Assembly (NCBI RefSeq): GCF_003696235.1
Contig: NZ_RFFJ01000003.1
Span: 1-64,000 of the forward strand
Direction: 5' to 3'
Length of the DNA: 64,000 nt
Source of the DNA: Streptomyces triticirhizae
Lineage (GTDB): Bacteria > Actinomycetota > Actinomycetes > Streptomycetales > Streptomycetaceae
The position numbers and the translations under genes are program-made. The notes below the pieces were generated by a model. It was not told the origin of the DNA, searched no databases, and worked only from the letters and a program-made list of their open reading frames with translations. Shown here piece after piece: positions 1,134-30,329 of this stretch. Position 1 is the first letter of the stretch. The number at the start of each line of letters is the position of its first letter.

Positions 1134-1150
1134 GCCCCGACCCGACCCCG

Positions 1151-5527: not shown

Positions 5528-5591
5528 CTCTCCTGCGGAGCGGTGGGGCGCCCGGGGAGCGCCGTGCGCGCCGCGCGCCGGGCCGGGTGGC

Positions 5592-6347: not shown

Positions 6348-6428
6348 GCCCCGGACCGTAGGCCGATCCGCCCGCGCGCCGACACCTGATTTCGCCGCGC
6401 GGCGGAGACGCCGCCCGGGAACGGCCCG

Positions 6429-6740: not shown

Positions 6741-6885
6741 CGAGGGCCAGCCGGAGGCCACCCCGGCCTGTCCCGGCGGACGGGGTGTTCGTTCAACGAC
6801 CGAGCCTCGCACGGCCTCGCGCGGACGTGGCCGCTCCCGGAGTGCGTCCGGTGAGGGCCGGACCAACCTCCGGCCGGGCCCGTCC

Positions 6886-6946
6886 GGCCGGGGCCCCTTG
6901 GCCCCGGCCAGGGCCGGGCAGTGGCCGGGGCCAAGGGGCCCCGGCC
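6886..6946. terminator. Very strong hairpin downstream of the alpha-glucosidase gene
   Basis: A perfect 25-bp inverted repeat (6886-6910 and 6922-6946) around an 11-nt loop, starting GGCCGGGGCCCCTTGGCCCC. It begins 10 bp after the glucosidase stop and has no T tract, as is usual for Streptomyces terminators. Confidence 0.75.
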
Positions 6947-6955
6947 ACGTCTGTG

Positions 6956-8638
6956 CTAGGCCCGTCCTGCCAGGGCACCGCCACCCCAGAGCCAGACGGT
7001 CGTGTCCGGCGGCAGGTGCCCGTTCGTGAGGCGTTCGCTGGCCAGCAGCACGCCCCAGTTCTTCGGCAACGGGTACGGCTCACCCGAGAAGTTGACCGCG
7101 CAGCGCAGCACCGGCGAACGTTCGAACGCGAGCACCCCCTCCGGCGTGGTCAGCCAGCGCAGCGTCCCGGAGCCGAAGCCCGGCTGCTCGCGGCGCAGCC
7201 GCAGCGCCGAGCGGTACAGCTCGAGCATCGACCAGGGGATGCCCGACTGGGCCTGCGCCGTCAGGCTCTTCCACTCGGCCGGCTGCGGCAGCCACGGCTT
7301 GGTGCCCTTGGGCCCGAAGCCGAACGGCCCGTCGAGCCCGGACCAGGGCAGCGGCACCCGGCAGCCGTCGCGGCCGCGCACGGTGTGGCCCGAACGTTCC
7401 CACGTCGGGTCGGCCAGCACCTCCTCCGGCAGGTCCTCGACCTCCCACAGGCCCAACTCCTCGCCCTGGTAGACGTAGGCGCCGCCCGGCAGGGCCAGGG
7501 TCAGCAGCGCCGCCGCGCGCGCCCTGCGGGTGCCCAGCTCCAGGTCGGTGCCGCCGCCGGCCGTGTCGTGCTCGTGGGTGCTGGTGTCGCTCCGGCCGTA
7601 GCGGGTCACGTGCCGGGGCACGTCGTGGTTGGAGAGCACCCAGGTCGGCGGCGCGCCGACCTCCGCGAGCGCGGTCACGCCCCGGTCGATCACCTCCCGC
7701 ATGGCCTTGGGCTCCCAGGAGCACTTCAGGTAGGGGAAGTTGAACGCGGTGTGCAGTTCGTCCGGCCGCAGGTAGTTCGCCAGCCGGTCGTCGCGGACAT
7801 GGGCCTCGGCGACGAAGACCCGGTCGCCCGCGTAGGAGTCGGCGATCTTGCGCCACTCCTGGTAGATCTCGTGCACCCCGTCCTGGTCCCAGTGTGGGTG
7901 GTGCTCCCGGTGCCGCTCGTGCTCGAAGAGCGCGTCGGCCGGGATGCCCAGGTCGGGCAGCGCCGGGTCCTTGACGAGGCCGTGCGCCACGTCGATCCGG
8001 AAGCCGTCCACGCCCCGGTCGAACCAGAAGCGCAGGATCGACTCGAACTCGTCCCGCACCTCCCGGTTCGCCCAGTTCAGATCGGGCTGTTGCGAGGCGA
8101 ACAGGTGCAGGTACCACTGGCCGGGGCTGCCGTCCGGCTCGGTGATCCTGGTCCAGGCCGGGCCGCCGAACCGGCTGCGCCAGTCGTTGGGCGGCTGGTC
8201 GCCGTCCGTTCCCCGGCCGTCCCTGAAGACGTAGCGCTCCCGCTCGGGTGAGCCGGGCGCGGCCGTCAACGCCTCCCGGAACCAGGGGTGTTGGTCGGAG
8301 GTGTGGTTGGGCACGATGTCCAGCACGACGCGCATCCCGAAGGTGTGCGCCTCGGCGATCAGCTCCTCCGCCTCGGCGAGGGTGCCGAACGCCGGCTCGA
8401 TCGCGCGGTAGTCGGCGACGTCATAGCCGCCGTCGGCCATCGGAGACGGGTACCAGGGGTTGATCCACAGCGCGTCAACCCCCAGTTCCTGGAGGTAGGG
8501 CAGACGGGCACGCAGACCGGCGATGTCGCCGATCCCGTCGCCGTTCCCGTCGGCGAAGCTTCTGATGTAGACCTGGTAGATGACGGCGTCGGCCCACCAG
8601 GGCGCGGCCGACTTCTGGTCAATGCGGGTGCGGGGCAC
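6956..8638 (-). CDS. Alpha-glucosidase / oligo-glucosidase, GH13
   Basis: GH13 (alpha/beta)8-barrel enzyme, 560 aa, the usual length for cytoplasmic alpha-glucosidases (subfamily 23/30 type). Conserved regions are visible: DIVPNHTS, nucleophile Asp216 in GFRIDVAHGL, acid/base Glu278 in VFVAEAHV, and transition-state stabiliser Asp339 in LSNHDVPRH. No signal peptide. It would hydrolyse imported maltose/isomalto-oligosaccharides from the non-reducing end. Start is the GTG at 8638 with GGAAGA upstream. The LacI regulator gene lies 55 bp upstream on the same strand. No sugar ABC transporter is adjacent, unlike the agl loci of many streptomycetes. Confidence 0.9.
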   Translation of the reverse strand: MPRTRIDQKSAAPWWADAVIYQVYIRSFADGNGDGIGDIAGLRARLPYLQELGVDALWINPWYPSPMADGGYDVADYRAIEPAFGTLAEAEELIAEAHTFGMRVVLDIVPNHTSDQHPWFREALTAAPGSPERERYVFRDGRGTDGDQPPNDWRSRFGGPAWTRITEPDGSPGQWYLHLFASQQPDLNWANREVRDEFESILRFWFDRGVDGFRIDVAHGLVKDPALPDLGIPADALFEHERHREHHPHWDQDGVHEIYQEWRKIADSYAGDRVFVAEAHVRDDRLANYLRPDELHTAFNFPYLKCSWEPKAMREVIDRGVTALAEVGAPPTWVLSNHDVPRHVTRYGRSDTSTHEHDTAGGGTDLELGTRRARAAALLTLALPGGAYVYQGEELGLWEVEDLPEEVLADPTWERSGHTVRGRDGCRVPLPWSGLDGPFGFGPKGTKPWLPQPAEWKSLTAQAQSGIPWSMLELYRSALRLRREQPGFGSGTLRWLTTPEGVLAFERSPVLRCAVNFSGEPYPLPKNWGVLLASERLTNGHLPPDTTVWLWGGGALAGRA

Positions 8639-8693
8639 GTATCTTCCATTCCTCTTGCGAGTTGACCCTGGGAGATGCGCGGTCGACGGCGGC

Positions 8694-9770
8694 TCACCGC
8701 GCGGTGGTGCTGTGCTGGTCCGGTTCAGGTCCCGGCCGAGGTGTGGAGTGATATCGGGGCGGATGTTCCCGAGCCGCGCCGGTGGTGCCCCGGACGACCA
8801 GCCGGGTCGGCACCACCACCCGGGTGGGCTCCTCGTCCCCGCCGGACAGGGCGTCCAGTATCTGGCGGGCGAGCAACTCTCCCTGGTGGGCTACGGGTTG
8901 CGCGATCGTGGTGAGATCGAGCAGCTCGGCCGTCTCGTGGTCGTCAAACCCGATGACCGAGACATCGTCGGGGGCGGTCAGCCCCATGCGGCCCAACGTC
9001 CGCAGGGCGCCGAAGGCCATCTGGTCCGACTCGGCGAAGACCGCCGTCGGCGGCTCCGGCAGGCTCAGCAGCTGTGCCATCGCTGACGCACCCTCGTCGA
9101 TACTCAGATGACCCGGCACTTCCAGATCCGGGTCGTAGGCAATCCCGGCCTGCGCGAGCACCGTGCGGTAGGCGTGCTGGCGAACGATCGGGGTGGTGAA
9201 CCCCCGAGGATCTCCGGGGGCGGCGGTGATCATACCGATCCTGCGGTGCCCCAGGTTGATCAGGTGACGGACGGCGGTGCTCGCGCCCTCCGCGTTGTCG
9301 ATGGAGACGTGCCAACAGCCCGGAACGCGGGTGCCGAGCACGGCGATCGGCACCTCCATCGACGCCAGCGCCTCGCTCTCGGCGGTGGAGAGCGGGAGGT
9401 TGAGCACGATCAGGGCGTCCACCCTGCGGCGCAGCGGCATTCTGGTGAAGAACCGCTCGTGCACCCGCTCGTCGCCGAGGTTGTACAGCAGCAGATCGAG
9501 GTCGTGGGCGCGCAGCACCGAGTCGATGCCCGCCAACACCTGGCTGTAGAACCAGCGGTTGACGAACGGCACGACCACGCCGACCGTCCCCGTCCGGCCG
9601 GAGGCCAGCGAGGAGGCGTGCGGGGAGACCGAGTACGACAGCTCCTCCGCCGCGCGCAGCACGCGCTCGCGGGTCGCCGCCGACACGTTCGGCAGCCCGC
9701 GCAGGGCGCGGGAGACGGTCGCGGTCGACACCTCCGCGCGCCGGGCGACATCCATGATGCTCGCGGCCAT
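8694..9770 (-). CDS. LacI family sugar-responsive repressor
   Basis: 358 aa. The N-terminal HTH (SIMDVARRAEVSTATVSRALRG) and hinge helix (AAEELSYSVSPHASSLASGR) are followed by a periplasmic-binding-like effector domain (TVGVVVPFVNRWFYSQVLAG, VIGFDDHETAELLDLTTIAQP). It very likely represses itself and the downstream alpha-glucosidase. A canonical LacI-type operator lies 52 bp upstream of its ATG. The inducer is expected to be an alpha-glucoside, by neighbourhood only. Confidence 0.9.
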   Translation of the reverse strand: MAASIMDVARRAEVSTATVSRALRGLPNVSAATRERVLRAAEELSYSVSPHASSLASGRTGTVGVVVPFVNRWFYSQVLAGIDSVLRAHDLDLLLYNLGDERVHERFFTRMPLRRRVDALIVLNLPLSTAESEALASMEVPIAVLGTRVPGCWHVSIDNAEGASTAVRHLINLGHRRIGMITAAPGDPRGFTTPIVRQHAYRTVLAQAGIAYDPDLEVPGHLSIDEGASAMAQLLSLPEPPTAVFAESDQMAFGALRTLGRMGLTAPDDVSVIGFDDHETAELLDLTTIAQPVAHQGELLARQILDALSGGDEEPTRVVVPTRLVVRGTTGAAREHPPRYHSTPRPGPEPDQHSTTAR

Positions 9771-17905: not shown

Positions 17906-18190
17906 GTGAACGCAACGAACGTGGCACAGACCGTCAGAGGACTGCTCGCCTCCGAGCTGATGGTGGAGGTCCCGGTCGGCCGGATGGACGCGGACGACAG
18001 CCTGCGGGACGTCTACGGGCTGGACTCGCTCGGCTTCGTGGAACTGCGTGTGCTGTGCGAGGAGAACTTCGGCATCACCATCTCGGAGGACGACTTCTCG
18101 CCCGAGCACTTCGCCACCCTCGGCGCGGTCGTCAGCCTCGTGGAGCGGCTGCTGAAGGAGCAGAAGGACACCGTCGAGCCCGCCGGTTGA
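17906..18190 (+). CDS. Acyl carrier protein
   Basis: 94 aa, a normal stand-alone ACP. The 4'-phosphopantetheine attachment site is Ser41 in YGLDSLGFVELRV. Helices II and III follow (EENFGITISEDDFSPEHFATLGAVVSLVERL). GTG start with AAAGGAG nine bases before. It opens the co-directional cluster and presumably carries the growing acyl or aminoacyl chain for the ketosynthase, dehydratase, aminotransferase and thioesterase downstream. Primary-metabolism AcpP is less likely, given the context and the unusual residues around the DSL. Confidence 0.93.
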   Translation: MNATNVAQTVRGLLASELMVEVPVGRMDADDSLRDVYGLDSLGFVELRVLCEENFGITISEDDFSPEHFATLGAVVSLVERLLKEQKDTVEPAG

Positions 18191-18313
18191 CGGCCGTCCC
18201 GGCCCATCGGTTCAGCACGGGCCGGGCCCCACGGCGCCCGGGGCATCCCCGCCGCCGTCGTACACGCGCACGGAAACGATCAACTCATCGCATCTTCAGG
18301 GACGGAGACGCCG

Positions 18314-19705
18314 TTGTCCGCGCCAGTCAGCACCCGGCTCACCGAATCCGAACTCGACCAGCTCCAGCGAAGTCAGTCCCTGCACTTCAACCACTACGGC
18401 CGCCCGCCGCTGCCCTTCGCCTGCCTGGGCGCCCGGGGCGTCGAGCTGGAGGCGGTCGAGCTGGCCGGGCCCCGACGTGGTGAAACGTTCACCCTCTTCG
18501 ACGCCAGCGGCGGCTACGGCAGCGCCTGCCTGGGCGCCGGCCACGACAGCGTGCGGCGTTCCCTGGGGCGGGGCGTCACCGACACCGGGTACGTGACCGA
18601 CGAGATCGCGTCCCGCGAACGGGCGGCCCTGCTGGACCAGCTGTTCGGGGCCGAGGGGCTGTGGACGGAGCACTTCCCCGGTGACGCCTACCACGTCGCG
18701 GGCCGCAACTCCGGTTCCGAGGGAGTGGAACTGGCCCTCCGGCTGGTCCTCGAATCGCGGTTCGACCCCAGGCGTCTGCGCCACCGCCCCGGGCGCGAGA
18801 AGCGGGACACCATCCTGGCGTTCGAGGGCGCCTGGCACGGCTGGACGCACGGCCTGCTGCCCCTCCTCAACCGCCGCCACTACCGGGTCGGTCTGCCGGG
18901 ACCCGTCGCCGACCACGACTACGGCCTGCGCGTGGAGCACATCCCGTTCGGCGACGAGGGCGCGCTGGAGGAGTACTTCGCCGCCCACTCCGAGCGGCTG
19001 CTCGCCGTCTTCGTCGAGCCCGTCCAGGGCGACGCCGGAATCCTGCTGCCCCCGCCCGGCTACCTGCGCCGCCTGTCGGAGATGTGCGGGGACAACGACA
19101 CCTGGCTGGTCGCCGACGAGGTGCTGACCTTCGCGAAGACCGGCGGCTGGTTCGGTATGCGCGACGCGCGGGGACCGGTGCCCACCGACATCACGGTGAT
19201 CGGCAAGAGCCTGGGCATGGGCGTGCTGTCGACCTCCCTGGTCATCGCCCGCCGCGAGCTGCGGGCCCGTGCCACCGGCACCATCTCCACCTCCGACCTG
19301 CGGCCGCTGACCTGCGCCGTGATACGCGACGGCATCGATCACCTGGTGAGCGAGGAACTGCTCAAACACTCCGTCGCACTGGGCGCGCGGCTGGCCGACC
19401 GGCTGCGGTCCGGGCTCGTCGAGCGCTTCCCCGAGATCTACACGCACGCGCGGGGCCTCGGCGTGATGCACGGCGTGGAGCTGTCCGAGACCGCGTCGAC
19501 CCAACTGGACCTCCTGCGCACCCACCTGATCTCGGCCGGGGTGTACGTCGAGTTCATGGCCGGTGCCGCGAAGCGGTCACACGGCCTGCGCTACGTGTAC
19601 CCGACGATGCGGATCGCTCCGCCGCTGATCACCAGCGAGGCGCAGGCGGACGAGATCGTCGACCGGCTGAGCGAGGGCACCCGGCGCTTCCGGGAGACGC
19701 TGTGA
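18314..19705 (+). CDS. Class III PLP-dependent aminotransferase
   Basis: 463 aa, fold-type I class III transaminase (ornithine/4-aminobutyrate/GSA-aminomutase group). Landmarks are HVAGRNSGSEGVELALRLVL, the FEGAWHGWTHGLL motif, the VEPVQGDAGILLPPPGYL segment, the Asp of WLVADEVLTFAKTG, and Lys298 in DITVIGKSLGMG. TTG start at 18314 with GGAG upstream. It overlaps the next gene by 4 bp. In an ACP/KS setting it may aminate a beta-keto or aldehyde carbon of an acyl intermediate, as known for transaminases in assembly lines. A free amino acid donor/acceptor role cannot be excluded. Confidence 0.9.
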   Translation: MSAPVSTRLTESELDQLQRSQSLHFNHYGRPPLPFACLGARGVELEAVELAGPRRGETFTLFDASGGYGSACLGAGHDSVRRSLGRGVTDTGYVTDEIASRERAALLDQLFGAEGLWTEHFPGDAYHVAGRNSGSEGVELALRLVLESRFDPRRLRHRPGREKRDTILAFEGAWHGWTHGLLPLLNRRHYRVGLPGPVADHDYGLRVEHIPFGDEGALEEYFAAHSERLLAVFVEPVQGDAGILLPPPGYLRRLSEMCGDNDTWLVADEVLTFAKTGGWFGMRDARGPVPTDITVIGKSLGMGVLSTSLVIARRELRARATGTISTSDLRPLTCAVIRDGIDHLVSEELLKHSVALGARLADRLRSGLVERFPEIYTHARGLGVMHGVELSETASTQLDLLRTHLISAGVYVEFMAGAAKRSHGLRYVYPTMRIAPPLITSEAQADEIVDRLSEGTRRFRETL

Positions 19706-20175
19706 CCCCGGCGGACGCCCCCGCTACCGCCGTCGGCACGGTGCGGCGCCGGATCGAGCACGTCGACACCGACGCCTCGGGGGTCGTCCACTTCTCCCGG
19801 TATGTGTCCCTCCTGGAGACCTTCGTACTCGACCACTTCGAGGAACACGGCGCGGGTCTGGCCCGGATCGCCGAACTCGGCGCCGACCTCGCCGTCACCG
19901 AGCTGACGGTGCGCTACCGCAGGCCGGGCGCCTACCGGGACCCGATCGTGGGGGAGGTCGTCGTGGAGCACGTCGGGGCCGCCCGCGTCCGGGTGGCCGC
20001 CAGCCTGCTGCGTGAGGAGACGAACGGCTCACGCACCGAACTCGCCTCCGGAACCCTCACGTTCGCGGCCGTTCACCCGACGACCGGCGGCCCGGTGCCG
20101 CTGCCTCCGACTGTCCGTCACACTCTGAAAGGGATCACCCCCGATGCAGCTCGACACGACACCGCAGCCCACTGA
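19702..20175 (+). CDS. Hotdog-fold acyl thioesterase (4HBT/YbgC type)
   Basis: 157 aa. The sequence VDTDASGVVHFSRYVSLLETF is the 4-hydroxybenzoyl-CoA thioesterase motif with the catalytic Asp24; the central beta-sheet segment LTVRYRRPGAYRDPIVGEV follows. GTG start overlaps the aminotransferase stop (GTGA). The 3' end overlaps the next gene by 32 bp. It could release the finished chain from the ACP or edit misprimed carriers. Small size and a full motif favour an active enzyme. Confidence 0.85.
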   Translation: MTPADAPATAVGTVRRRIEHVDTDASGVVHFSRYVSLLETFVLDHFEEHGAGLARIAELGADLAVTELTVRYRRPGAYRDPIVGEVVVEHVGAARVRVAASLLREETNGSRTELASGTLTFAAVHPTTGGPVPLPPTVRHTLKGITPDAARHDTAAH

Positions 20176-20683
20176 ACGCACGGCGGCGGTGCCCCCGGCG
20201 CGGGAGCCGCAGCGGGGCGCCGACCGGCAGATCGGCTTCTCGGAGCTGAAGAAGTGGCTGCGCCACCGCCACCCGATGATCTACATCGACCGGATAACCG
20301 ACCACGAGCCCGGGGTCTTCCTCAGGAGCCTGCTGTCGGTCTCCGGAAACCTCGACGCCATCGCGGGGCACTTCCCGGAACGGGCGATCTACCCGGGAAG
20401 CCACCTGATGCAGGCGTTCGCGCAGTCCGGGATCATCCTCTACCAGCTGAGCACCAGCCCGCTGGCCGACGACGAACTGACGCTGATCGGTTCCGTCAAG
20501 TCGCGGTTCACCAGCCCCGTCGTCCCCGGCGACCAGGTGGTCTTCGACGTCCGGGCCGACCGGCTGGTCGGCACCACGTTCTTCTTCTCGTGCCAGGCCA
20601 CCGTGGACGGCCTGACGGTCGCCGCCTTCCGTGGAACGCTGACCCGCAGGAAGGTCTCGGACCTCGGCCGTCAGCTGTGGTGA
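20144..20683 (+). CDS. FabZ-like (3R)-hydroxyacyl-ACP dehydratase with altered active site
   Basis: 179 aa, single hotdog domain after an N-terminal extension of about 30 residues. FabZ features are LRHRHPMIYIDRI, the catalytic His in AIAGHFPERAIYPGSHLMQAFAQSG, and SVKSRFTSPVVPGD. In FabZ the active-site Glu lies in the ILEAMAQ helix; here the aligned residue is Gln (LMQAFAQ). Dehydration may therefore be impaired or redirected. ATG at 20144 is preceded by AAAGGGA. Overlaps both neighbours, so strictly co-expressed. Confidence 0.85.
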   Translation: MQLDTTPQPTERTAAVPPAREPQRGADRQIGFSELKKWLRHRHPMIYIDRITDHEPGVFLRSLLSVSGNLDAIAGHFPERAIYPGSHLMQAFAQSGIILYQLSTSPLADDELTLIGSVKSRFTSPVVPGDQVVFDVRADRLVGTTFFFSCQATVDGLTVAAFRGTLTRRKVSDLGRQLW

Positions 20684-22455
20684 CGGCCGGCACCGAGGCC
20701 GTCGTCACCGGCATGGCCTGGGCGACTCCGCTGGGCGACGGTCTCCAGGAGGTGTGGCGGCGGCTCTGCTCGGGCGCGACGGGTGTCGCCGACCAACCGT
20801 CGCCGCACCGGCTGCGCACGGAGCGTGCCGCCGCCGTGCCCTCCCCGCCCTACCGCCCCGGAGGCCGGGAGGCATGGGAACGGCAGGTCGCCCTCGCGGC
20901 GCGCACCATGGACGCGGCCCTGCGGGACGCGGGCGTGGCGGCGGACCACGGGCGGCTGACCCTCGTTCCGGGCACCAGCTTCGACGCCCGGATCGACCGC
21001 GAGGCCCCCGAGGAGGACTGGGCCGTGGCGGCAGCCCGCCAACTCGGCCACCCCAGAAGGCCGTTGGTGGTCACCACCGCCTGCTCGGCCGGGGCCGACA
21101 GCCTGTTACTCGCCCTGGCACTGCTCCGCGAGGGGGGCGGCGAGGGAATCTTCCTGGCCGGCGGCGTCGACGTGCTGACCGAGGCCAAGCGGCTCGGTCA
21201 CTCCGCGCTCGGCACGATGAGCCCCACCGGGCTGCGCGCCTTCGACGTGGCGCACGACGGCATGACCCTCGGCGAGGGCGCGGGCTTCCTGGTGCTGGAG
21301 GGCGCCGCCGCCGCCCGCCGCCGGGGCGCCCGGGTGTACGCGACGCTGAGCGGCGCGGGTTCGGCCAACGACGCCTTCGGACTGACCGCACCGGACCCGT
21401 CGGGGCGCACCGTGACCGCCGCGGTGCGGCGGGCCCTCGCGGGGTCGGGCGGCGTGCCCGGCGACGTGGCCGTGATCTGTGCGCACGGCACCGGCACCCC
21501 GGCCAACGACGAGGTCGAAGCCGCCACCGTGCAGCGGCTGTTCGGCGGCGTCCGGAGCGGACCCGTCCCCGTGGTCTTCGGCACCAAGGGGGCGCTCGGC
21601 CACAGTCTCGGTGCCACCGGGGCGATCGAGGCGGTGGCCACCGTGCTCGCCCTGCGCGAAAGACAGGTGCCTCCGCTCCACGGGCTCTCCTCCCCGCTGC
21701 CGGGGCTGTCGCTCCGGCTGCCCCGTGGGGGGCCGGAGAAGGCGTACGGGACGCGGGGCATCAGCCTCACGCTGGGGTTCGGCGGATTCAACACCTGTCT
21801 GCTGTTCGACTCCGGGCCGCCCGCCGGGGATGCCGGAGACGGCGCGGCCACGGCGGTGCCCGCCGGCCCCGCGTCTGACCCGCCGCTCGCCGTCGCCGGG
21901 CACGCGACGCTGCGCGTCACCGACCCCGCCTCCCACACCCGCGACAAGCCGTCCTTCTACGCCGATCCGGTCGCCTGGCTGATCGTCTCCGCCGTCGAGG
22001 AGGCGCTCGCCCCCTGCCGGGAGGAGGCCCTGGCGGAGCCCGACGAGGTCGCCGTCCTGGTGACCCACGACGGCCAAGCCCTGCCCACGCACCGGAGGAT
22101 CGCCCGGGACGCGGCGCGCGGCCGCGTCTCGCCCCTGCGGTTCGCCGGCTCCAACCCCGGCATCCTGGCCGGACTCACCTGCCTCACCCTCGGTCTGCGG
22201 GGCCCGTCCCTGGTCCTGGAGGCGGACCCGGCGGACGCCGGGAACGCCGGGACCGCGCTGGTCGGGGACTGGCTGCGCACCGGCCGGGCGAGGTACGTGC
22301 TGTGGGCCGCCCACCGAGCGGACGGCGACGCGCACACGGCGACCTGCGTGGTGCTCCGTCCCGGGACGCCCGACGACGACGGTGCCGACGGCGCCGGGTT
22401 CGCCCGGCAACTGCTCACCGACCCGCCGACCGCCGACGCGGTACAGCGGCCATGA
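20680..22455 (+). CDS. Beta-ketoacyl synthase fused to a degenerate ketosynthase-like domain
   Basis: 591 aa. Residues 5-390 form a complete FabF-type KS with Cys135 (VTTACSAGADSL), His269 (CAHGTGTPANDEVE), Lys303 and His308 (GTKGALGHSLGATGA), and a normal C-terminal GFGGFNTCLLF. About 180 further residues (roughly 402-585) resemble the N-terminal half of a second KS of the chain-length-factor/Ketoacyl-synt_2 type (DPVAWLIVSAVEEAL ... GSNPGILAGLTCLTLGLRGPSLVL), with no active Cys. GTG start overlaps the dehydratase stop. A TTA leucine codon at 21106-21108 suggests dependence on bldA tRNA. It would extend an ACP-bound chain; no dedicated KR or AT is nearby. Confidence 0.9.
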   Translation: MTAGTEAVVTGMAWATPLGDGLQEVWRRLCSGATGVADQPSPHRLRTERAAAVPSPPYRPGGREAWERQVALAARTMDAALRDAGVAADHGRLTLVPGTSFDARIDREAPEEDWAVAAARQLGHPRRPLVVTTACSAGADSLLLALALLREGGGEGIFLAGGVDVLTEAKRLGHSALGTMSPTGLRAFDVAHDGMTLGEGAGFLVLEGAAAARRRGARVYATLSGAGSANDAFGLTAPDPSGRTVTAAVRRALAGSGGVPGDVAVICAHGTGTPANDEVEAATVQRLFGGVRSGPVPVVFGTKGALGHSLGATGAIEAVATVLALRERQVPPLHGLSSPLPGLSLRLPRGGPEKAYGTRGISLTLGFGGFNTCLLFDSGPPAGDAGDGAATAVPAGPASDPPLAVAGHATLRVTDPASHTRDKPSFYADPVAWLIVSAVEEALAPCREEALAEPDEVAVLVTHDGQALPTHRRIARDAARGRVSPLRFAGSNPGILAGLTCLTLGLRGPSLVLEADPADAGNAGTALVGDWLRTGRARYVLWAAHRADGDAHTATCVVLRPGTPDDDGADGAGFARQLLTDPPTADAVQRP

Positions 22456-22468
22456 AGGGACACCACGG

Positions 22469-23869
22469 ATGTCTGCCACGGATGACCTCGTGTTGGAACA
22501 CCGGCGGGTCGCCGAGTTCCTGGACCGCTCCTCCGAGCCCGGCGCGGCGGACGGCCCGGAGCCGTCGCTGGACGACACCCTCGCCGCGCTGGCCGCGCTG
22601 GGCCTGCCGCCCGGCAGCGCCGTGCTGCTGGCGCTCTCCAACTCCCTGCACATGCTGCGCCTCTACCTGTCCGCCCTGCTCCTGGGGCTCGTGCCGCTCG
22701 CCGTCGCCCCGGCGACCCCCTCGGCGCGCATCCGTGGGCTGGCCAGGCGACTTGACGTAGCGGCGCTGATCGCCGCCTGGCCCGACCCGGAGCGCTACGG
22801 CGCCCCGCGCGCCCACCCGGTCCCGGGCGGCGCGGCCGTCCTGCTGAACGACGCGAGCGGCCCGCCCCCGTACCGGGCGGGAGACGTGTTGATGTCGACC
22901 TCCGGGACGTCCGGGGCCGCCAGCGCCTGCCTGCACCGGACCTCGTCCCTGCTGCGCAACGCGGAGCGGCACGCCGGGGCCGTGGGGATGCGCGCGGGGG
23001 ACACCGTCCTCGTCAACCTGCCCCTGTACTACTCGTACGCGATGGTCGCTCAGGTGCTGGCCGCGTACGGGTGCGGTGCCAGGGTGGTGGTGTCCGGGCC
23101 GCCCTTCTCCCCGGCCACCTACGTCAAGCAGATCGCTGACCACGGGGTGACCCACTCCTCCATCACGCCGACGATCGTCCGGCGGCTCATCGAAGGACCC
23201 ACGGGAACGCCGTCGGGCGTCCGGGCGCTCACCGTCGGCGGCGACCACCTGCCGCCGGACCAGGTGGCCCGGCTGCTGGCGGCCCGTCCCGGCGCGGAGC
23301 TGTACCTCACCTATGGGCTGACCGAGGCGGGCCCCCGGGTGTCCACCCTCGCCGCGCACGCGGAACCCCCGCGCCGGTACGCCTCCGTGGGGCTGCCGCT
23401 GCCCGGGGTCCGGGTCTGGCTGCGCGAGCGGCCCGGCGACGAGGGCACCGGTGAACTCATGGTCGCCAGCGACACGGCGCTCGTGCGCAAGATCTCCGAC
23501 GCACCAGGAGCCGGACGGACGCTCGCCGCCCCGGGGGTCGTCGCGACCGGCGACGTCTTCCGCATCGAGGACGGCTACCTCTTCTTCCGGGGCCGTCTGT
23601 CGGACTTCGTGATGATCCGGGGCGAGAAGGTCTCCCTCAGCTCCGTCCGCCACACCGCGCTGACCCTGCCCGGCGTGGAGCGCTGTGTGACGAGGGTGGG
23701 CACGGGGGACGACGGAGAGTCCTTTCTCGAGGTGGAGTTGGCGGTACCCGATCCACCGCCCGACGCGGCGCGGACCTTGCGGCGGGCCCTCAACTCCCTC
23801 CTCCTGCCGTCGGAGCGCCCCCGCACCGTCACGGTGACCGAGGCCGACCGGGAGGGCTTCCACAAGTGA
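22469..23869 (+). CDS. Acyl-AMP ligase (ANL superfamily)
   Basis: 466 aa, short for the family. P-loop-like A3 motif is VLMSTSGTSGAASACLHR (the usual PK after it is replaced), A5 is YLTYGLTEAGP, A7/A8 is TGDVFRIEDGYLFFRGRLSDFVMIRGEKVS. The C-terminal subdomain is intact, and the last residue is Lys in EADREGFHK, probably the A10 lysine. It should activate a carboxylic acid as adenylate and load it onto the ACP or CoA, either as starter supply or to join the acyl chain to an amine. ATG at 22469 with GAAGGGA upstream, 13 bp after the KS gene. Confidence 0.85.
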   Translation: MSATDDLVLEHRRVAEFLDRSSEPGAADGPEPSLDDTLAALAALGLPPGSAVLLALSNSLHMLRLYLSALLLGLVPLAVAPATPSARIRGLARRLDVAALIAAWPDPERYGAPRAHPVPGGAAVLLNDASGPPPYRAGDVLMSTSGTSGAASACLHRTSSLLRNAERHAGAVGMRAGDTVLVNLPLYYSYAMVAQVLAAYGCGARVVVSGPPFSPATYVKQIADHGVTHSSITPTIVRRLIEGPTGTPSGVRALTVGGDHLPPDQVARLLAARPGAELYLTYGLTEAGPRVSTLAAHAEPPRRYASVGLPLPGVRVWLRERPGDEGTGELMVASDTALVRKISDAPGAGRTLAAPGVVATGDVFRIEDGYLFFRGRLSDFVMIRGEKVSLSSVRHTALTLPGVERCVTRVGTGDDGESFLEVELAVPDPPPDAARTLRRALNSLLLPSERPRTVTVTEADREGFHK

Positions 23870-24065
23870 CCGCGCCATCCGTCCCCCGTGTGCCGACGCG
23901 GAGGGGGCCGCACTCCGACGAGGGCCGCGCCGTGCCCCACCGCGACGGCGGCCACGGCGCCCGGTGCGTGGGAGTTCCCCGGCTGCCGGGGCGCGTCAGC
24001 GCGCGACCGCCGCAGGCCGAGCCGGGGCCGTCGGGACGCTCCACCGTCGGGAGGGAGGGACAGGG

Positions 24066-25022
24066 ATGGTGAGGGGCTATCTGCTCATCGGGCTCTCCGC
24101 GACCGGCTTCGGGCTCATGCCCGTCTTCGCCACGTTCGCCTACCGTGACGGGCTGACCCTCGCCACGCTGCTCTTCCTCCGCTTCGCCCTCGCGGCGGCG
24201 GTCTTCCTCCCGTACGCGGTCCGCCACGCCCGCCGCACCGGCCCCCCGAAGCGGGCGGACCTGCTGCGGCTGGTCGTGCTGGGCGGAGTCCTGTACACGG
24301 CACAGTCGACGCTGTACTTCTCGTCCGTCAAGCACATCTCGCCCGCGCTGGCCGCCCTGTTGTTGTACGTGTACCCGGCCCTGGTGGCCACGGTGTCCGC
24401 CGTCCTCGGCCGGGACAGGCCCTCGCTGGCCGTCGTCGGCTCGATGCTGGCGTCCTTCGCCGGCGTGTCACTCGTGCTGGGCCGCATCGGGACGGACCTG
24501 AACGTCGTGGGCGTCCTCCAGGTGCTCGGCGCCGCCGGGGTCTACACCGCCTACATCCTGTACGGCGACCGGGTGAGCGGCAGCGTGCACCCCGTGGTGA
24601 TGACGGCCTGTGTCTCGGCGGCCGCGGCGGTCTCCTTCCTGCTGTACGGGGCGGCCACGGGCGACCTGAGACTCGACTTCGCCTACCGGGGCTGGCTCTG
24701 GGTGCTCGCCCTGGCCCTGGCCTCCACGGTCGTGGCGATTCTCTGCTTCTTCCTCGGGATGACCCTGATCGGTCCGACGCGCGCGTCGATCGGCAGCATG
24801 TTGGAGCCCGTGGTGAGCATCGTCGCCAGCGCGGTGCTGCTGAGCAGCGGGCTGACGTGGCTGCAACTCCTCGGTGCCGCCCTGGTCCTGACCGGTGCCA
24901 CCGTGGGCGTCCTCTCCCGCCGTCCCCCGTCCCCGGGCGCGCCGCCCGCGCTGCCGCCGCAGCTCTCGCGGGACCACGACGCCACGCCACCACGTTCCGG
25001 GCAGCCGCCCCCGCGCCGCTGA
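24066..25022 (+). CDS. EamA/DMT family exporter
   Basis: About 318 aa with ten hydrophobic helices in two EamA repeats (GYLLIGLSATGFGLMPVFATFAYRDG...; GVLQVLGAAGVYTAYILYGDRV...). Members export amino acids and metabolites. The ATG at 24066 follows GGAGGGACAGGG. It has a Pro-rich cytoplasmic tail. Located in the middle of the cluster, with 197 bp upstream (23870-24065) that hold no other gene and may carry a promoter. Likely exports the cluster product or a toxic intermediate (inference). Confidence 0.88.
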   Translation: MVRGYLLIGLSATGFGLMPVFATFAYRDGLTLATLLFLRFALAAAVFLPYAVRHARRTGPPKRADLLRLVVLGGVLYTAQSTLYFSSVKHISPALAALLLYVYPALVATVSAVLGRDRPSLAVVGSMLASFAGVSLVLGRIGTDLNVVGVLQVLGAAGVYTAYILYGDRVSGSVHPVVMTACVSAAAAVSFLLYGAATGDLRLDFAYRGWLWVLALALASTVVAILCFFLGMTLIGPTRASIGSMLEPVVSIVASAVLLSSGLTWLQLLGAALVLTGATVGVLSRRPPSPGAPPALPPQLSRDHDATPPRSGQPPPRR

Positions 25023-25064
25023 CGGCCGCCGCCCGCCCCTCCCCGAGGAGAACCAGGAGACCCC

Positions 25065-26054
25065 ATGCCCCCACATCCGCTCTTCTGTTCGGCCGATGAG
25101 GTCGAGACGCTGCTCGGAACGGACGAGGCCATCGCCTCCCAGCGCCGCGCGTTCACCGCCCTCGCCCACGGCACGGTCGATCTGCCACCGAAGATCATGC
25201 ATCCGAGCCGCTTCGACGACAGCGTGATGTTCTGTTACGTGTCCCGCCTCTCCGAGGACACCGGCGCCGTCGCCAAGTTCGGCGGCGTCCACCCCGCCAA
25301 CCGCGCGCACGGCCTGCCCAGCGTGAACGCGGTCGTCGTCGTTCTCGACCCGGTCACCGGGGTCGTCGTCGCGGTACTGGACGGCACCACGGTGACGACC
25401 CTGCGCACGGCGGCGGCGAGCGCGGTGGCCGTCGACGCGCTCGCGCTTCCCGAAGCGGACGAGCTGGGGCTGATCGGATCGGGCACCCAGGCGCTGGCCC
25501 ACGCCCGGGCGATCGCGCGGATACGGCCGCTGCGCGCGGTGCGCGTCTGGAGCCCCACCGAGAGGCACCGCGTCCGGGCCGCCGAGCGCATCGCCGTCGA
25601 ACTCGGGGTGCGGGCCGACGCGGTGGGCAGCGCGCGGGAGGCGGTGAACGGCGTGCCCATGGTCGCCACCTGCACCCTCAGCCGCGAGCCGGTCGTGCGC
25701 GGGCCGTGGCTTTCGCCGGGCGCCACGGTGGTGGGCGTCGGCTCGTTCGAACCCGACCGGCACGAGGTGGACGCGCACGCCCTGCGACGGGCCGCCACGG
25801 TCGTCGTGGATGATCCGCGAACCGCCGCCGGACACGCGGGGCCCGTGGTCGCCGCGCTCGACGGCGGCGACCTCGGGCCCGGCGACCTCGTGCCCCTCGG
25901 CGAGGTACTGACCGGGCAGCGGGCGGCCCGCTCCTCCGAGCGGGACATCGTCCTGTACTTCAGCGTGGGCCTCGGCCTCCAGGACGCGGCGGCGGCCTGG
26001 GCCGTCGTCGACGCGGCCAGGGCCTCGGCCGAGCGACCGGCGGTCGCGCGATGA
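25065..26054 (+). CDS. Ornithine cyclodeaminase/mu-crystallin family enzyme
   Basis: 329 aa. Rossmann motif LGLIGSGTQALAHARAIARI, the family segment AKFGGVHPANRAHGLPSVNAVVVVLDPVTG, TTLRTAAASAVA, and VGVGSFEPDRHEVD near the end. Known activities include ornithine/lysine cyclodeaminase (lysine to pipecolate), ketimine reductase (mu-crystallin) and alanine dehydrogenase. Next to an FAD amine oxidase and two saccharopine dehydrogenases, a lysine-to-pipecolate role is attractive but unproven. AGGAGA precedes the ATG. The stop overlaps the next start (ATGA). Confidence 0.88.
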   Translation: MPPHPLFCSADEVETLLGTDEAIASQRRAFTALAHGTVDLPPKIMHPSRFDDSVMFCYVSRLSEDTGAVAKFGGVHPANRAHGLPSVNAVVVVLDPVTGVVVAVLDGTTVTTLRTAAASAVAVDALALPEADELGLIGSGTQALAHARAIARIRPLRAVRVWSPTERHRVRAAERIAVELGVRADAVGSAREAVNGVPMVATCTLSREPVVRGPWLSPGATVVGVGSFEPDRHEVDAHALRRAATVVVDDPRTAAGHAGPVVAALDGGDLGPGDLVPLGEVLTGQRAARSSERDIVLYFSVGLGLQDAAAAWAVVDAARASAERPAVAR

Positions 26055-27229
26055 GCGGGCGCGGGGCCCGGCCGGGCGGCGCCCTGCCGGACCGGGCGTC
26101 GGTCGTCGTCATCGGCGGCGGGGTGATGGGCACCAGCATCGCCTACCACCTCGCCCGCGCCGGCGTGCGCGACGTGGTGCTCGTCGAGCGGGACCAACTG
26201 GCCTCCGGTTCCACGTCCAAGGCCGCTGGGGGAGTGCGGGCGCAGTTCTCCGACGTCCTGAACATCCAGCTCGGCGCCCGGAGCCTGGAGGCCTTCGGCC
26301 GCTTCGGCGAGGAACCGGGGCACGACATCGGGCTGCACCGGGTGGGGTACCTCTTCCTCCTGTCGACACCCGAGCAGGTGGCCTCCTTCGAGGCCGGTGT
26401 GCGGTCGCAGAACGGCCTGGGCGTGCCCAGCCGCATGATCGACGTCGCCGAGGCACAACGGCTGTCCCCGCTGATCAGCGCCGAGGGGCTGCTGGCCGCC
26501 GCCTTCTCCCCGGACGACGGGTACTGCACCCCCGAGGCGGTGGTGCTCGGTTACGCCGACGCCGCGCGGCGGCACGGCGTGGTGATCGTCCGGCGGTGCG
26601 CCGTCACCGCCATCGAGACGAAGGGGTCGGGCATCACGGCGGTCCTCACCTCCCGGGGGAGGATCGCCACGACCGACGTCATCTGCGCCGCCGGTGCCTG
26701 GTCGGCCGAGGTCGGCGCCATGGTGGGCGTGGACCTGCCCGTGCGGCCGCTGCGCCGTCAGATCGCCGTCACCGGAGCGGTGCCGGGGATGCCGCCCGAC
26801 GCGCCCATGACGATCGACTTCGACAGCGGCTTCTACTTCCACGGGGAGGGCCCCGGCGTCCTGCTCGGCATGTCCGACCCCGAGGAGACTCCGGGCTTCC
26901 GCACCACGGTCTCCGACGCGTGGCTGCCTCGGCTGCACGCCGCGATGAGCCGGCGCGCCCCCGCCCTGCTGGAGGCACCCGTCACCGGCGGCTGGGCCGG
27001 GCTGTACGAAACCACCCCCGACCACAACGCGCTGATCGGCGAGGCGGGCGGCCCCACCCGCTTCCTGTACGCCACCGGGTTCTCCGGGCACGGCTTCCTC
27101 CAGGCGCCGGCGGTGGGCGAGGTGGTCCGCGACCTGTACCTCGGCCGGGAGCCCTTCGTCGATGTGTCCCCGTTGCGAGCCGAGCGGTTCGCCGCTCAGG
27201 AGGCGCGCCCCGAGGCCAATCTCGTGTGA
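26051..27229 (+). CDS. FAD-dependent amine oxidoreductase (sarcosine/pipecolate/glycine oxidase-like)
   Basis: 392 aa, DAO-fold flavoenzyme. N-terminal dinucleotide motif SVVVIGGGVMGTSIAYHLARAG with the acidic end LVERD, the STSKAAGGVRAQFS segment, DVICAAGAWSAEVGAM, and C-terminal GWAGLYETTPDHNALIGE plus FSGHGFLQAPAVGEVV. It belongs with monomeric sarcosine, pipecolate, proline-dehydrogenase-beta and glycine oxidases. Coupled to the cyclodeaminase-like gene by a 4-bp overlap. If that enzyme makes pipecolate, this one could oxidise it to piperideine-6-carboxylate. Substrate assignment is inference. Confidence 0.87.
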   Translation: MSGRGARPGGALPDRASVVVIGGGVMGTSIAYHLARAGVRDVVLVERDQLASGSTSKAAGGVRAQFSDVLNIQLGARSLEAFGRFGEEPGHDIGLHRVGYLFLLSTPEQVASFEAGVRSQNGLGVPSRMIDVAEAQRLSPLISAEGLLAAAFSPDDGYCTPEAVVLGYADAARRHGVVIVRRCAVTAIETKGSGITAVLTSRGRIATTDVICAAGAWSAEVGAMVGVDLPVRPLRRQIAVTGAVPGMPPDAPMTIDFDSGFYFHGEGPGVLLGMSDPEETPGFRTTVSDAWLPRLHAAMSRRAPALLEAPVTGGWAGLYETTPDHNALIGEAGGPTRFLYATGFSGHGFLQAPAVGEVVRDLYLGREPFVDVSPLRAERFAAQEARPEANLV

Positions 27230-27337
27230 GCGGAACCCCGTACACCCCGTAACCCCGTAACCCCGGACTCCCAGGCATCCGCGCCACCGAAGCACCGTCG
27301 CGACCGGCACCGAAACCGACAGGAGCGGCCGACCGCC

Positions 27338-28420
27338 ATGACCGATGCCCCGCAGCTCTGGATGCGCCGCGAGACCCGCCCTCACGAGCGGCGCGCCCCG
27401 ATCACTCCGAAGGACGCCCGTCGGCTCGTCGCCGCCGGGGTCCCCGTGACCGTCGAGGACTGCCCGCAACGGGTGTTCCCGCTGTCGGCCTACCTGGCCG
27501 CCGGATGCCGGTCCGCCGCACCGGACGCCTGGACCGGCGCCCCGCGCGGCACGGTCGTCGTCGGCCTGAAGGAACTCCCCGACGAACCGGCCGAGTTGGT
27601 GCACCGTCATGTCATGTTCGGCCACGCCTACAAGGGTCAGCCGGGCGCCGCGCGCCTGCTGGAGCGGTTCGCGAGGGGCGGCGGCGAGCTGCTCGACCTG
27701 GAGGAACTCACCGACGACCTGGGCCGCCGCCTGGCCGCCTTCGGCTACTGGGCCGGGTACGCCGGGGCGGCCCTCGCGGTCCTGCACGCCCGGGGCAGGC
27801 TCACCTCGCCCGTCGCCCCGACCACGCGGGCCGCGCTGGACGCCTCCTTGGAACGGGCACCCGACGACCCGGAGTTCAGGGCCCTGGTCCTCGGCGCGCT
27901 CGGCCGCTGCGGACGCGGCGCGTGCGACGCGCTGACCGCCGCCGGCGTCGACCCGGTCCGCTGGGACCTGGCCGAAACCCGCCGGCTCGACCGCCCGGCC
28001 CTGCTCGCCCACGGCCTGCTGGTCAACGCCGTGCTCAGCACGGCTCCCGCCACCCCGTTCCTCACCCCGCGCGACCTCGACGCCCCACACCGCAGGCTCG
28101 CCACCATCTGCGACGTGACGTGTGACGTCGGATCGGAGTGCGACATGCTGCCGATCTACGACGCGGTGACCAGCTGGGAGCGGCCCGTACGCAGACTGCT
28201 CGACGCGCCGCCGCTCGACCTGATCGCCCTGGACAACCTCCCCTCGCTGCTGCCCGATGAGGCCAGCGTGGACTTCTCGGCGGCGCTGCTGCCCCAACTG
28301 CTCGCCCTCGCCCACGGCCACGACGGCCCGGCCTCCCCGTGGGGCCGTTGCGCGGCCCGTTTCCACACGGCACTGCTGACGGACATCGACCGCACCTCGG
28401 GAAGGACCGGACGTGACTGA
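27338..28420 (+). CDS. Saccharopine dehydrogenase (NAD, L-lysine-type), LYS1-like
   Basis: 360 aa. Matches the AlaDh/PNT-like LYS1 family from the first residues (LWMRRETRPHERRAPITP, VTVEDCPQRVFP). The catalytic pair is present: Lys78 in VVVGLKELPDEP and His96 in HVMFGHAYKGQPGAARLLERF, as in the yeast enzyme. LLDLEELTDDLGRRLAAFGYWAGYAGAALAVL and ICDVTCDVGSECDMLPIYD are also characteristic. Reversibly joins lysine and 2-oxoglutarate as saccharopine. It ends 8 bp inside the LYS9-like gene. The 108-bp gap before it holds a short CCCCGTA-type repeat. Confidence 0.9.
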   Translation: MTDAPQLWMRRETRPHERRAPITPKDARRLVAAGVPVTVEDCPQRVFPLSAYLAAGCRSAAPDAWTGAPRGTVVVGLKELPDEPAELVHRHVMFGHAYKGQPGAARLLERFARGGGELLDLEELTDDLGRRLAAFGYWAGYAGAALAVLHARGRLTSPVAPTTRAALDASLERAPDDPEFRALVLGALGRCGRGACDALTAAGVDPVRWDLAETRRLDRPALLAHGLLVNAVLSTAPATPFLTPRDLDAPHRRLATICDVTCDVGSECDMLPIYDAVTSWERPVRRLLDAPPLDLIALDNLPSLLPDEASVDFSAALLPQLLALAHGHDGPASPWGRCAARFHTALLTDIDRTSGRTGRD

Positions 28421-29582
28421 AGTGAACGGCGCGACCGACGTGATCGCCCCCACCGGCACCGTGCACTGGATGGGGGCCGGCCTGTCCACGGGCAGCGGCC
28501 TCGCTGCCGTCCTCCGCACGGCAGCCCGGGTGCGACTCTGGCACCGTGGCGTCGACCGCGCCGAGAAGGCGCTGGACCGGCTCGGGCTGTCCGGGCGCGT
28601 CGCCCCCCGTGCCTTCACCCCCGAAGCGCTGAGCGCGGAACTGACCCCAGGCGACATCGTGGTCTCCATGCTGCCTGCCCGCGAACACGACGCGCTGCTG
28701 CGCGTGTGCGTCGACCACCGGGTCCATTTCGCCTGTAGCAGCTACGCCTCCGACACCATGCGCGCACTCGACCCGGTCGCCGCCGCGAACGGCACCGTGG
28801 TCCTCGCGGAGGCCGGTCTCGATCCGGGCATCGACCATCTCTTCGCCCACAGCCTGATCGGCCGGGCCGGGGAACGGTGGGGCGACGCGCCCGCACGGGT
28901 CCGCTTCACCTCCTACTGCGGGGGAGTGCCGGCCGTTCCCAACGCCTTCCGCTACCGCTTCAGTTGGGCGCCCCGAGGCGTTCTGGGAGCGCTGCGCACC
29001 CCCGCCCGTCATGTGGCGAACGGCGTCCCGGTCACCGCCGTGCGGCCGTGGGAGGCCGCCGTCACGCGGACGGTCGGCGGCGAGACCTTCGAGGTGTACC
29101 CCAATCGCGACAGCGTGCCCTTCATCGCCCAGTACGGGCTTCCCCCGCAGTGGAGCGTGGACACGTTCGTCCGGGGCACGCTGCGCCTGGAGGGCTGGCT
29201 CAACGCCTGGGAACCGGTCTTCGCCGAACTGCGCCGTGGTGACGACACGCGGATCGCCTCCCTGGCAGACGAGTTGGCGGCACGTCACCCCACCACCGAC
29301 AGCGACCGCGACCGCGTGGTCCTGACGGTCTCCCTTGACGTGCGCGACGACGCCGGGGACACCTGGGAGGGCCACTACCTCCTCGACACGGTCGGCGACG
29401 CCGCCGAGAGCGCCATGGCCCGCTGCGTGTCCCGGCCCCTGGCGGACGGGGTGGGACAGATCCTGCACGGCCTCCTGCCGGCGGGCCTGACCTGCGCGGC
29501 CCGTGGCGCCGACGACTCCGAACGGGCTCTCGCCCGCCTCGCCGAACAGGGCATCGACTTCACCCGTCACCTCCCCGACTGA
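28413..29582 (+). CDS. Saccharopine dehydrogenase (L-glutamate-forming), LYS9-like
   Basis: 389 aa. Rossmann start GTVHWMGAGLSTGSGLAAVL; then DIVVSMLPAREHDALLRVC, FACSSYASDTMRALDP, VVLAEAGLDPGIDHLFAHSLI and the substrate domain (FTSYCGGVPAVPNAFRYRFSWAPRGVL, FEVYPNRDSVPFIAQYG). This is the saccharopine reductase family that interconverts saccharopine with glutamate and 2-aminoadipate 6-semialdehyde. GTG start inside the LYS1-like gene, so the two are coupled and together form a complete lysine/semialdehyde interconversion. No semialdehyde dehydrogenase is adjacent, which suggests the aldehyde or its cyclic imine is the wanted product. Confidence 0.88.
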   Translation: MTEVNGATDVIAPTGTVHWMGAGLSTGSGLAAVLRTAARVRLWHRGVDRAEKALDRLGLSGRVAPRAFTPEALSAELTPGDIVVSMLPAREHDALLRVCVDHRVHFACSSYASDTMRALDPVAAANGTVVLAEAGLDPGIDHLFAHSLIGRAGERWGDAPARVRFTSYCGGVPAVPNAFRYRFSWAPRGVLGALRTPARHVANGVPVTAVRPWEAAVTRTVGGETFEVYPNRDSVPFIAQYGLPPQWSVDTFVRGTLRLEGWLNAWEPVFAELRRGDDTRIASLADELAARHPTTDSDRDRVVLTVSLDVRDDAGDTWEGHYLLDTVGDAAESAMARCVSRPLADGVGQILHGLLPAGLTCAARGADDSERALARLAEQGIDFTRHLPD

Positions 29583-29852
29583 GCCCCGGTGGGGCCCCCG
29601 GCGGGGACGCGGGACGCGCGGGTGGGGTGGTCCCGTACGCTTCCTTCGGTTCCCTCCGGCACCGCGCGGAGAAGCGGGAACCCACCGAGACGGTCAGCCG
29701 ACCGTGGCAGGGACCCCCGGGCGCCGGCCCGGGGAGCGGACGTCAGATCCCAGCGGTACGACCGACGGTCCTCATGGTGCGACGAGCGGCGGACCACCCG
29801 GCCACGTCGCACCGTCGACAGGGGCGCGCACCGCCCCAGGGAGGCATGTTTC

Positions 29853-30329
29853 ATGCACACGGCAGTCCAGCGGGTTCGCGAGGTCCTGACCGAGCACGGC
29901 GCCCCGGTCAGCATCGTGGAACTGCCCGACCCCGCCCCGACGGCCGCCGCGGCGGCGGCGCAACTGGGCTGCGCCGTGGGCGCCGTGGCCAACAGCATCG
30001 TCTTCCGCGTCGACGGTGAGCCACTCCTGGTCGTCACCAGCGGCGGGCACCGCGTCGACACCCGTCTCCTGGCCGGTCTCCGTGGCGTGGCCCACCGCAG
30101 GGTCCGGCGGGCCGACCCCGACTACGTCCTTGAGGTCACCGGCCAGCGCGTCGGCGGCGTCGCCCCGATCGGTCACCCCGAGCCCCTGCCGACGCTGATC
30201 GACGAGCACCTTCACACGTACCCGCACATCTGGGCGGGGGCGGGACTCCCCCACACCGTGTTCCGGACGACCTGTGCGGATCTGACCCGCCTGACCGGGG
30301 CCAGGACGGCGAGGGTGGCCGGCGCCTGA
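29853..30329 (+). CDS. YbaK/ProX-type aminoacyl-tRNA deacylase
   Basis: 158 aa, single YbaK/EbsC domain. Typical pieces are AQLGCAVGAVANSIVFRVDGEPLLVVTSGGHRVDTRLL, the VLEVTGQRVGGVAPIGHPEPLPTLIDEHL core and the final WAGAGLPHTVFRTTCADLTRLTG. The family hydrolyses mischarged tRNAs (for example Cys-, Ala- or imino-acid-tRNA(Pro)). ATG at 29853 with AGGGAGG upstream. The 270-bp gap before it (29583-29852) shows a GC-rich hairpin-like start and otherwise nothing. In this position it may protect against a non-protein imino acid, though the family is also common outside clusters. Confidence 0.85.
   Translation: MHTAVQRVREVLTEHGAPVSIVELPDPAPTAAAAAAQLGCAVGAVANSIVFRVDGEPLLVVTSGGHRVDTRLLAGLRGVAHRRVRRADPDYVLEVTGQRVGGVAPIGHPEPLPTLIDEHLHTYPHIWAGAGLPHTVFRTTCADLTRLTGARTARVAGA

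Follow-up and report, generated by a model that had tools for sequence, protein, structure and literature searches.

A saccharopine dehydrogenase pair within a Streptomyces cispentacin-type gene cluster: possible regeneration of a lysine amine donor

The DNA analyzed here is a 64,000-nucleotide stretch of Streptomyces triticirhizae (the window; contig NZ_RFFJ01000003.1, positions 1 to 64,000), and the subject is a module of four intact open reading frames (ORFs), all on the forward strand, at 25065-29582. The module encodes a reductase, a flavin oxidase and a pair of saccharopine dehydrogenases. A first-pass annotation, made from the letters of the DNA, had placed the four genes here and named their families; the ORFs are intact, co-directional and where it put them, and the families were confirmed by Pfam and by comparison with solved structures. 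By their coordinates the first two genes overlap by 4 bases and the last two by 8 bases.

25065..26054, forward strand: OCD/mu-crystallin-family reductase (PF02423, OCD_Mu_crystall, 213.6 bits; 6t3e, 157.5 bits)
26051..27229, forward strand: DAO-family flavin oxidase (PF01266, DAO, 249.2 bits; best solved relative 1y56_B, 204.1 bits)
27338..28420, forward strand: LYS1-like saccharopine dehydrogenase, lysine-forming type (PF05222, AlaDh_PNT_N, 74.2 bits; 2q99, 219.9 bits; K78, H96, E122)
28413..29582, forward strand: LYS9-like saccharopine reductase, glutamate-forming type (PF16653, Sacchrp_dh_C, 122.3 bits; PF03435, Sacchrp_dh_NADP, 44.3 bits; 1e5l, 121.1 bits)

Directly upstream, at 17906-23869, is a complete cispentacin core in which five NCBIfam models score above their cut-offs. 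Homologs of all seven amcB-H genes are present, and judged by its genes alone the locus is a cispentacin-type biosynthetic gene cluster. From the AmcB homolog through a YbaK-type gene downstream of the module (17906 to 30329) every gene lies on the forward strand.

17906..18190, forward strand: acyl carrier protein (ACP), AmcB homolog (PF00550, 47.5 bits; compared AmcC loci have a homolog in this position)
18314..19705, forward strand: AmcC, class III aminotransferase (NF058664, 781 bits, cut-off 600)
19702..20175, forward strand: AmcD-type thioesterase, 4HBT (PF13279; synteny)
20144..20683, forward strand: AmcE, FabZ-like dehydratase/cyclase (NF058663, 280.1 bits, cut-off 140)
20677..22455, forward strand: AmcF-AmcG fusion of 592 aa, ketosynthase plus CYF (NF058662, 506.5 bits over 8-378, and NF058659, 198.2 bits over 406-560, both over cut-off)
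22469..23869, forward strand: AmcH, 2-oxoglutaryl-ACP ligase (NF058661, 643.6 bits, cut-off 370)
24066..25022, forward strand: EamA-type exporter (PF00892, 108.8 bits; also at L094, L095, L098 and L102 of the 41 AmcC loci described below)
29853..30329, forward strand: YbaK/ProX-type aminoacyl-tRNA editing domain (PF04073, 92.8 bits, cut-off 25.5; 2cx5, "putative trans-editing enzyme," 95.2 bits)

The solved structure nearest to the LYS1-like protein is the lysine-forming saccharopine dehydrogenase 2q99, which we take to be yeast Lys1 and which matches over 6-339, that is, over the whole length; AASS chains reach at most 61.1 bits. The Lys78 and His96 to which the first-pass annotation had drawn attention are indeed present and are kept in 110 and 111 of 111 aligned homologs, as is Glu at position 122 (111/111); all three are presumably catalytic, as in yeast Lys1. 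The LYS9-like protein contains both the NADP and the Sacchrp_dh_C domain, and its nearest solved structure is a saccharopine reductase. The OCD-family protein is probably a cyclic ketimine reductase: it matches the Delta1-pyrroline-2-carboxylate reductase 6t3e with 157.5 bits against about 75 for solved lysine cyclodeaminases, and identity as a lysine cyclodeaminase was rejected on these scores. The oxidase had been labeled pipecolate-oxidase-like, of which the DAO family membership stands, but the score against the L-pipecolate oxidase model AmaA (NF050086) is 40.9 bits, far under the cut-off of 600. Its best solved relative is deposited as a sarcosine oxidase and is, we assume, a proline dehydrogenase subunit; we propose that the window protein acts on pipecolate or a similar cyclic or secondary amine. 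Scans for promoters and terminators found nothing.

The cispentacin set amcB-H is known from the amipurimycin cluster, and the window shares its seven core functions, the aminotransferase model reaching 781 bits; it differs in the fusion of AmcF with AmcG and in the addition of EamA, OCD, DAO, LYS1, LYS9 and YbaK genes (PMC10698177). In that study, an AmcC homolog undergoes pyridoxamine phosphate formation and converts compound 4 to 5 with L-ornithine or L-lysine as amino donor, AmcH loads 2-oxoglutarate alone among the acids tried, and the FabI step, which reduces the ring, uses NADH; saccharopine, YbaK and resistance are not mentioned in its main text (PMC10698177). Our count of ORFs finds AmcF-AmcG as a single ORF in the window and in a second Streptomyces locus (L077), as separate ORFs in 10 of 12 other displayed loci, and AmcG not called in L100.

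On balance we favor a reading in which the module is accessory to the cispentacin cluster and would regenerate its lysine amine donor. AmcC would transfer the omega-amino group from lysine to the oxocyclopentane acid carried on the ACP, leaving aminoadipate semialdehyde (AASA), if this AmcC uses lysine as we suppose. Judged by their families, LYS9 would condense AASA with glutamate and NADPH into saccharopine, and LYS1 would convert saccharopine and NAD+ to lysine, 2-oxoglutarate and NADH. The fungal LYS9 and LYS1 enzymes together take AASA and glutamate to lysine and 2-oxoglutarate (PMC9854754). Because AmcC would leave AASA and the LYS9/LYS1 pair would turn AASA into lysine, the pair could pay back the donor, and lysine would thereby be catalytic, regenerated in each round. 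The 2-oxoglutarate released by LYS1 could serve AmcH as the next starter, its NADH would match the need of the FabI step, and one glutamate could be the source of the amino group as well as of the starter carbons. The EamA-type protein is a possible exporter of cispentacin.

This proposal is weakest in the roles that it assigns to the OCD reductase and the DAO oxidase. They would recover AASA that has been lost to pipecolate through cyclization and reduction, or lysine whose alpha-amino group has been removed to give piperideine-2-carboxylate. Pyrroline-5-carboxylate reductase can reduce AASA, or its cyclic form piperideine-6-carboxylate (P6C), to pipecolate (PMC9854754), so a rescue enzyme makes sense. 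In Penicillium, conversion of pipecolate to lysine needs a pipecolate oxidase and saccharopine reductase, according to a title cited in PMC9854754. The OCD, DAO, LYS9 and LYS1 enzymes would be a bacterial form of that route, differing in that the genes are clustered, include an OCD gene and lie in an antibiotic cluster, with an oxidase that is distantly AmaA-like.

The convergence of the pipecolate and saccharopine routes on AASA/P6C, proposed in the first-pass annotation, is supported. The conclusion drawn from it, that the aldehyde or cyclic imine is a biosynthetic precursor, is not the best reading, since the genes sit in a cispentacin cluster whose AmcC would itself yield AASA from lysine. 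AASA would instead be a by-product for return to lysine, with LYS9 and LYS1 operating in the reverse of the direction that had been assumed.

Co-location of LYS1 with cispentacin genes was examined in two surveys. Among 392 genomes of the same genus, with no more than five LYS1 candidates scored per genome, AmcC exceeds its cut-off in 8, LYS1 is present in 100, and both occur in 2 (the genome of the window and G368). At L077 the whole set is present, with 85-94% identity to the window. Patterns derived from the window AmcC, run against 84,980 species genomes, gave 41 AmcC loci, of which three (L094, L101, L102) have LYS1 in the stretch read; L094 was taken as the same contig as L077, and L101 and L102 were counted as independent co-locations. 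The expectation by chance of LYS1 within 10 kb of AmcC is 0.026 in the 39 loci off very short contigs, giving P(>=2) = 3.2e-4, a control that assumes the genus-wide LYS1 frequency and 8.5-Mb genomes. Of the 28 further AmcC genomes searched, drawn from 29 of the 41 loci, 4 contain LYS1, and 2 of the 4 have it at the AmcC locus.

The strongest single case for a link between module and cispentacin is Couchioplanes (L102), where the core and EamA lie on one strand, DAO-LYS1-LYS9 are divergent, and YbaK lies beyond; its LYS1 falls in a different part of the LYS1 tree from that of the window. Spongiactinospora gelatinilytica (L101 17689-20508, L248 6894-8911) has LysA-like and DapD-like genes, a LYS1 split over two contigs, and LYS9, adjoining a cispentacin cluster of the nonribosomal peptide synthetase (NRPS) type; one further gene was read as EctC-like. 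The LysA-like and DapD-like neighbors make the direction of LYS1 there ambiguous, and L101 was rejected as a second clean case; it enters the counts solely as a co-location. The core of S. rosea (L099) is similar, but LYS1 was not found genome-wide; a small gene there is presumably EctC-like.

The LYS1-LYS9 pair has other settings. We compared 109 same-genus LYS1 loci, the window and L077 included, with up to 7.5 kb scanned on each side (7.5 kb on both sides in 14, 6 kb in 99); two G377 fragments were merged, and a G188 fragment (L229) was dropped, having no LYS1 match on rescan. LYS9 is present in 93 loci, DAO in 68, always co-directional with LYS1 and with short gaps, and OCD in 29, in every case with DAO. 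A GTP cyclohydrolase II gene (RibA2) is near LYS1 in 77 loci, 66 of which also have DAO and 27 OCD (for example L081 7084-10050 and L087 9288-13219). The order RibA2-(OCD)-DAO-LYS1-LYS9 has a module part identical to that of the window, with 75-78% identity for DAO and 64-67% for LYS1 in seven sampled loci; these loci differ in adjoining the GTP cyclohydrolase II gene, with no link to AmcC. Fifteen loci contain hydrazine-type genes, one for a lysine N-hydroxylase plus one for another protein of the DAO family, and 11 of these also have a cupin-MetRS gene within 7.5 kb; one set was checked with Pfam. The remaining loci are 2 cispentacin loci and others that are mixed.

In the hydrazine pathway an Spb39-type step releases AASA (PMC11705231, PMC13274452). 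The azaserine and triacsin clusters, which consume the epsilon-amino group of lysine, likewise have paired saccharopine dehydrogenases, AzsH/AzsI and Tri23/Tri24; lysine is an N-N carrier there, whereas in the window it would be a transaminase donor (PMC10445470). The azaserine authors read AzsH/AzsI as lysine supply (PMC10445470). Regeneration of lysine from AASA as the common job of the pair fits the hydrazine, cispentacin and azaserine cases. A hydrazine pathway in the window itself was rejected: homologs of the Spb39-type oxidase and of cupin-MetRS are absent from the whole window, which contains, of the Spb38-40 cassette, only a Lys N-hydroxylase homolog at 3730-4983, 35% identical. Evidence for a broader association between LYS1-LYS9 and class III aminotransferases is thin; in 113 loci scanned, such genes were near LYS1 only at L082, L224 and L247 besides four cispentacin loci. 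At L247 (9622-19562) and L224 (6629-12132) the aminotransferases beside the pair are other than AmcC.

We also consider, tentatively, a wider form of the favored reading, in which each glutamate would contribute first its nitrogen, by way of saccharopine and lysine, and next its carbon, as 2-oxoglutarate, in a closed shuttle, YbaK self-protection would be joined to the module, and the pair would be a general AASA-to-lysine kit in hydrazine and other clusters; this may hold, though we would not expect it to.

A number of observations weigh against donor regeneration. AmcC could take ornithine rather than lysine, and the direction of the reactions cannot be fixed from sequence. Expression of amcB-H alone in S. 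albus gave ~200 mg/L cispentacin (PMC10698177), and disruption of tri23/tri24 left triacsin production unchanged (PMC10445470); the module would therefore be accessory at most. LYS1 is absent from 6 of the 8 same-genus AmcC genomes, from the stretch read at 38 of the 41 cispentacin loci, and genome-wide from 24 of the 28 AmcC genomes searched, and in the AmcC genomes of L100 and L104 the LYS1-LYS9 pair is on another contig without the core (pair loci L246 and L247). OCD is missing from the L102 stretch. Kutzneria (L095) has EamA and OCD without DAO, LYS1 or LYS9, LYS1 having been searched genome-wide, which the favored reading does not explain. Sixteen of the 109 LYS1 loci have no LYS9 match, and the 77 that adjoin GTP cyclohydrolase II rather than AmcC are its commonest setting and indicate another job there.

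Those same 77 loci, with their frequent DAO and OCD genes and the uniform co-direction and short gaps of all 68 DAO-LYS1 pairs, speak for a general pipecolate/lysine salvage operon, placed in or beside the cispentacin cluster by chance. DAO would convert pipecolate to P6C/AASA, LYS9 and LYS1 would take this to lysine, and OCD would feed in piperideine-2-carboxylate, with no special link to cispentacin. We take this alternative seriously and still regard it as unlikely, because the window genes lie between EamA and YbaK, each present in several cispentacin loci, and because the cispentacin cluster of another genus (L102) has DAO-LYS1-LYS9 with a LYS1 of different lineage. Moreover, LYS1 of the window groups with that of L077 and the partial LYS1 of L101 in one clade (FastTree support 0.884), which stands next to the RibA2 group rather than inside it. 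Decidedly less probable is the first-pass view that the module makes AASA/P6C or pipecolate from lysine to serve as a building block, here of a cispentacin conjugate. The four enzymes do converge on AASA/P6C with no adjacent dehydrogenase, and a precursor role is plausible at L101/L248 in Spongiactinospora, where a cispentacin core has next to it LYS1-LYS9 and also LysA-like, DapD-like and adenylating/NRPS-like genes. However, among the window genes examined at 12-35 kb there was no NRPS, amide ligase or adenylating enzyme except AmcH, the same pair is found where lysine is a nitrogen donor, and AmcC would generate the aldehyde anyway.

The absence of an adjacent aldehyde dehydrogenase, noted in the first-pass annotation, extends across the 64-kb window in a tblastn scan with five proteins of the same genome as queries (E 1e-10). 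With the same queries and threshold it extends also to the stretches around LYS1 in the 109 same-genus loci, 99 of them reaching at least 6 kb on both sides, so that an AASA dehydrogenase co-transcribed in related loci, which would have counted against that annotation, did not materialize. An AASA dehydrogenase beside the pair, the mark of a catabolic saccharopine pathway, is thus found neither in the window nor in the stretches read at these loci. Elsewhere in the genome there are 11 Aldedh matches, of which 8 proteins were scanned: aminobutyraldehyde dehydrogenase, succinic semialdehyde dehydrogenase, PruA, PaaN and ProA models score above cut-off, two proteins are under every cut-off shown, and one has no model at the threshold used. 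The two sub-cut-off proteins have no entry named as an AASA dehydrogenase among their solved-structure matches at the thresholds used. An AASA dehydrogenase elsewhere in the genome, which it had been suggested to look for, was not identified among the 8 of 11 matches, but the assembly is a draft of 428 contigs and absence is unproven. Lysine catabolism through saccharopine and AASA to aminoadipate, with the dehydrogenase encoded elsewhere, could draw on the two sub-cut-off enzymes or on the three matches outside the 8 scanned; we consider it very improbable given the dehydrogenase-free LYS1 loci and the lack of a recognized dedicated enzyme among the eight, and there would be redundancy in having a second route, through an oxidase, to that aldehyde. 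Least credible, as a long shot, is that LYS1 and LYS9 have some other, opine-like substrate, as they would in joining cispentacin to 2-oxoglutarate. The family has been recruited before, PyrL having been suggested to act on a hydrazine analog in pyrazomycin biosynthesis (PMC8664883), but the Lys, His and Glu positions are kept in 110 or 111 of 111 homologs, and 93 of the 109 LYS1 loci also have LYS9, almost always with no cispentacin genes.

The YbaK-type gene is a separate recurrent companion of the cispentacin core. Its tRNA_edit domain, at 92.8 bits against a cut-off of 25.5, places it in the YbaK/ProX trans-editing family. In a domain-trimmed search (an iterative search over stop-to-stop ORFs was dropped on account of shadow frames) such a gene lies beside the core in the window, at L077 and at 10 of the 41 AmcC loci (L098, L102, L107, L113, L114, L116, L120, L121, L123 and L129). 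These span Streptomyces, Couchioplanes, Polycladospora and eight myxobacterial loci, in which the gene is immediately upstream of the ACP; none was found up to 7.5 kb from LYS1 at the remaining 107 same-genus LYS1 loci. The cispentacin analog BAY 10-8888 inhibits isoleucyl-tRNA synthetase (PMC10698177). The YbaK protein is a candidate for self-resistance and may act by removing cispentacin from tRNA that has been mischarged with it. In the open-licence PubMed Central literature we found no paper linking cispentacin to YbaK, and none joining trans-editing, self-resistance and a biosynthetic gene cluster. The recurrence of the gene makes self-resistance to cispentacin, a drug lead, a hypothesis that can be tested.

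If lysine is regenerated as we propose, the saccharopine dehydrogenase pairs of unrelated antibiotic clusters would be explained as repayment of lysine with a spent epsilon-nitrogen, and the likely error of taking such genes for precursor or degradation genes would be corrected. In the same open-licence literature our searches found no paper joining lysine, saccharopine, amino donor, transaminase and Streptomyces. The idea is testable with a few soluble enzymes and isotope labeling, and it would offer an engineering handle on cispentacin yield.

The genome of the window encodes a second LYS1-LYS9 pair (L092 12906-15827), beside a C-terminal domain of a thiamine pyrophosphate enzyme at a contig edge. 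Far upstream of the cispentacin core, at 2129-5082, a pyridoxal phosphate-dependent decarboxylase gene is followed by a Lys/Orn monooxygenase gene, an arrangement that we take to resemble the start of a desferrioxamine-type siderophore cluster.

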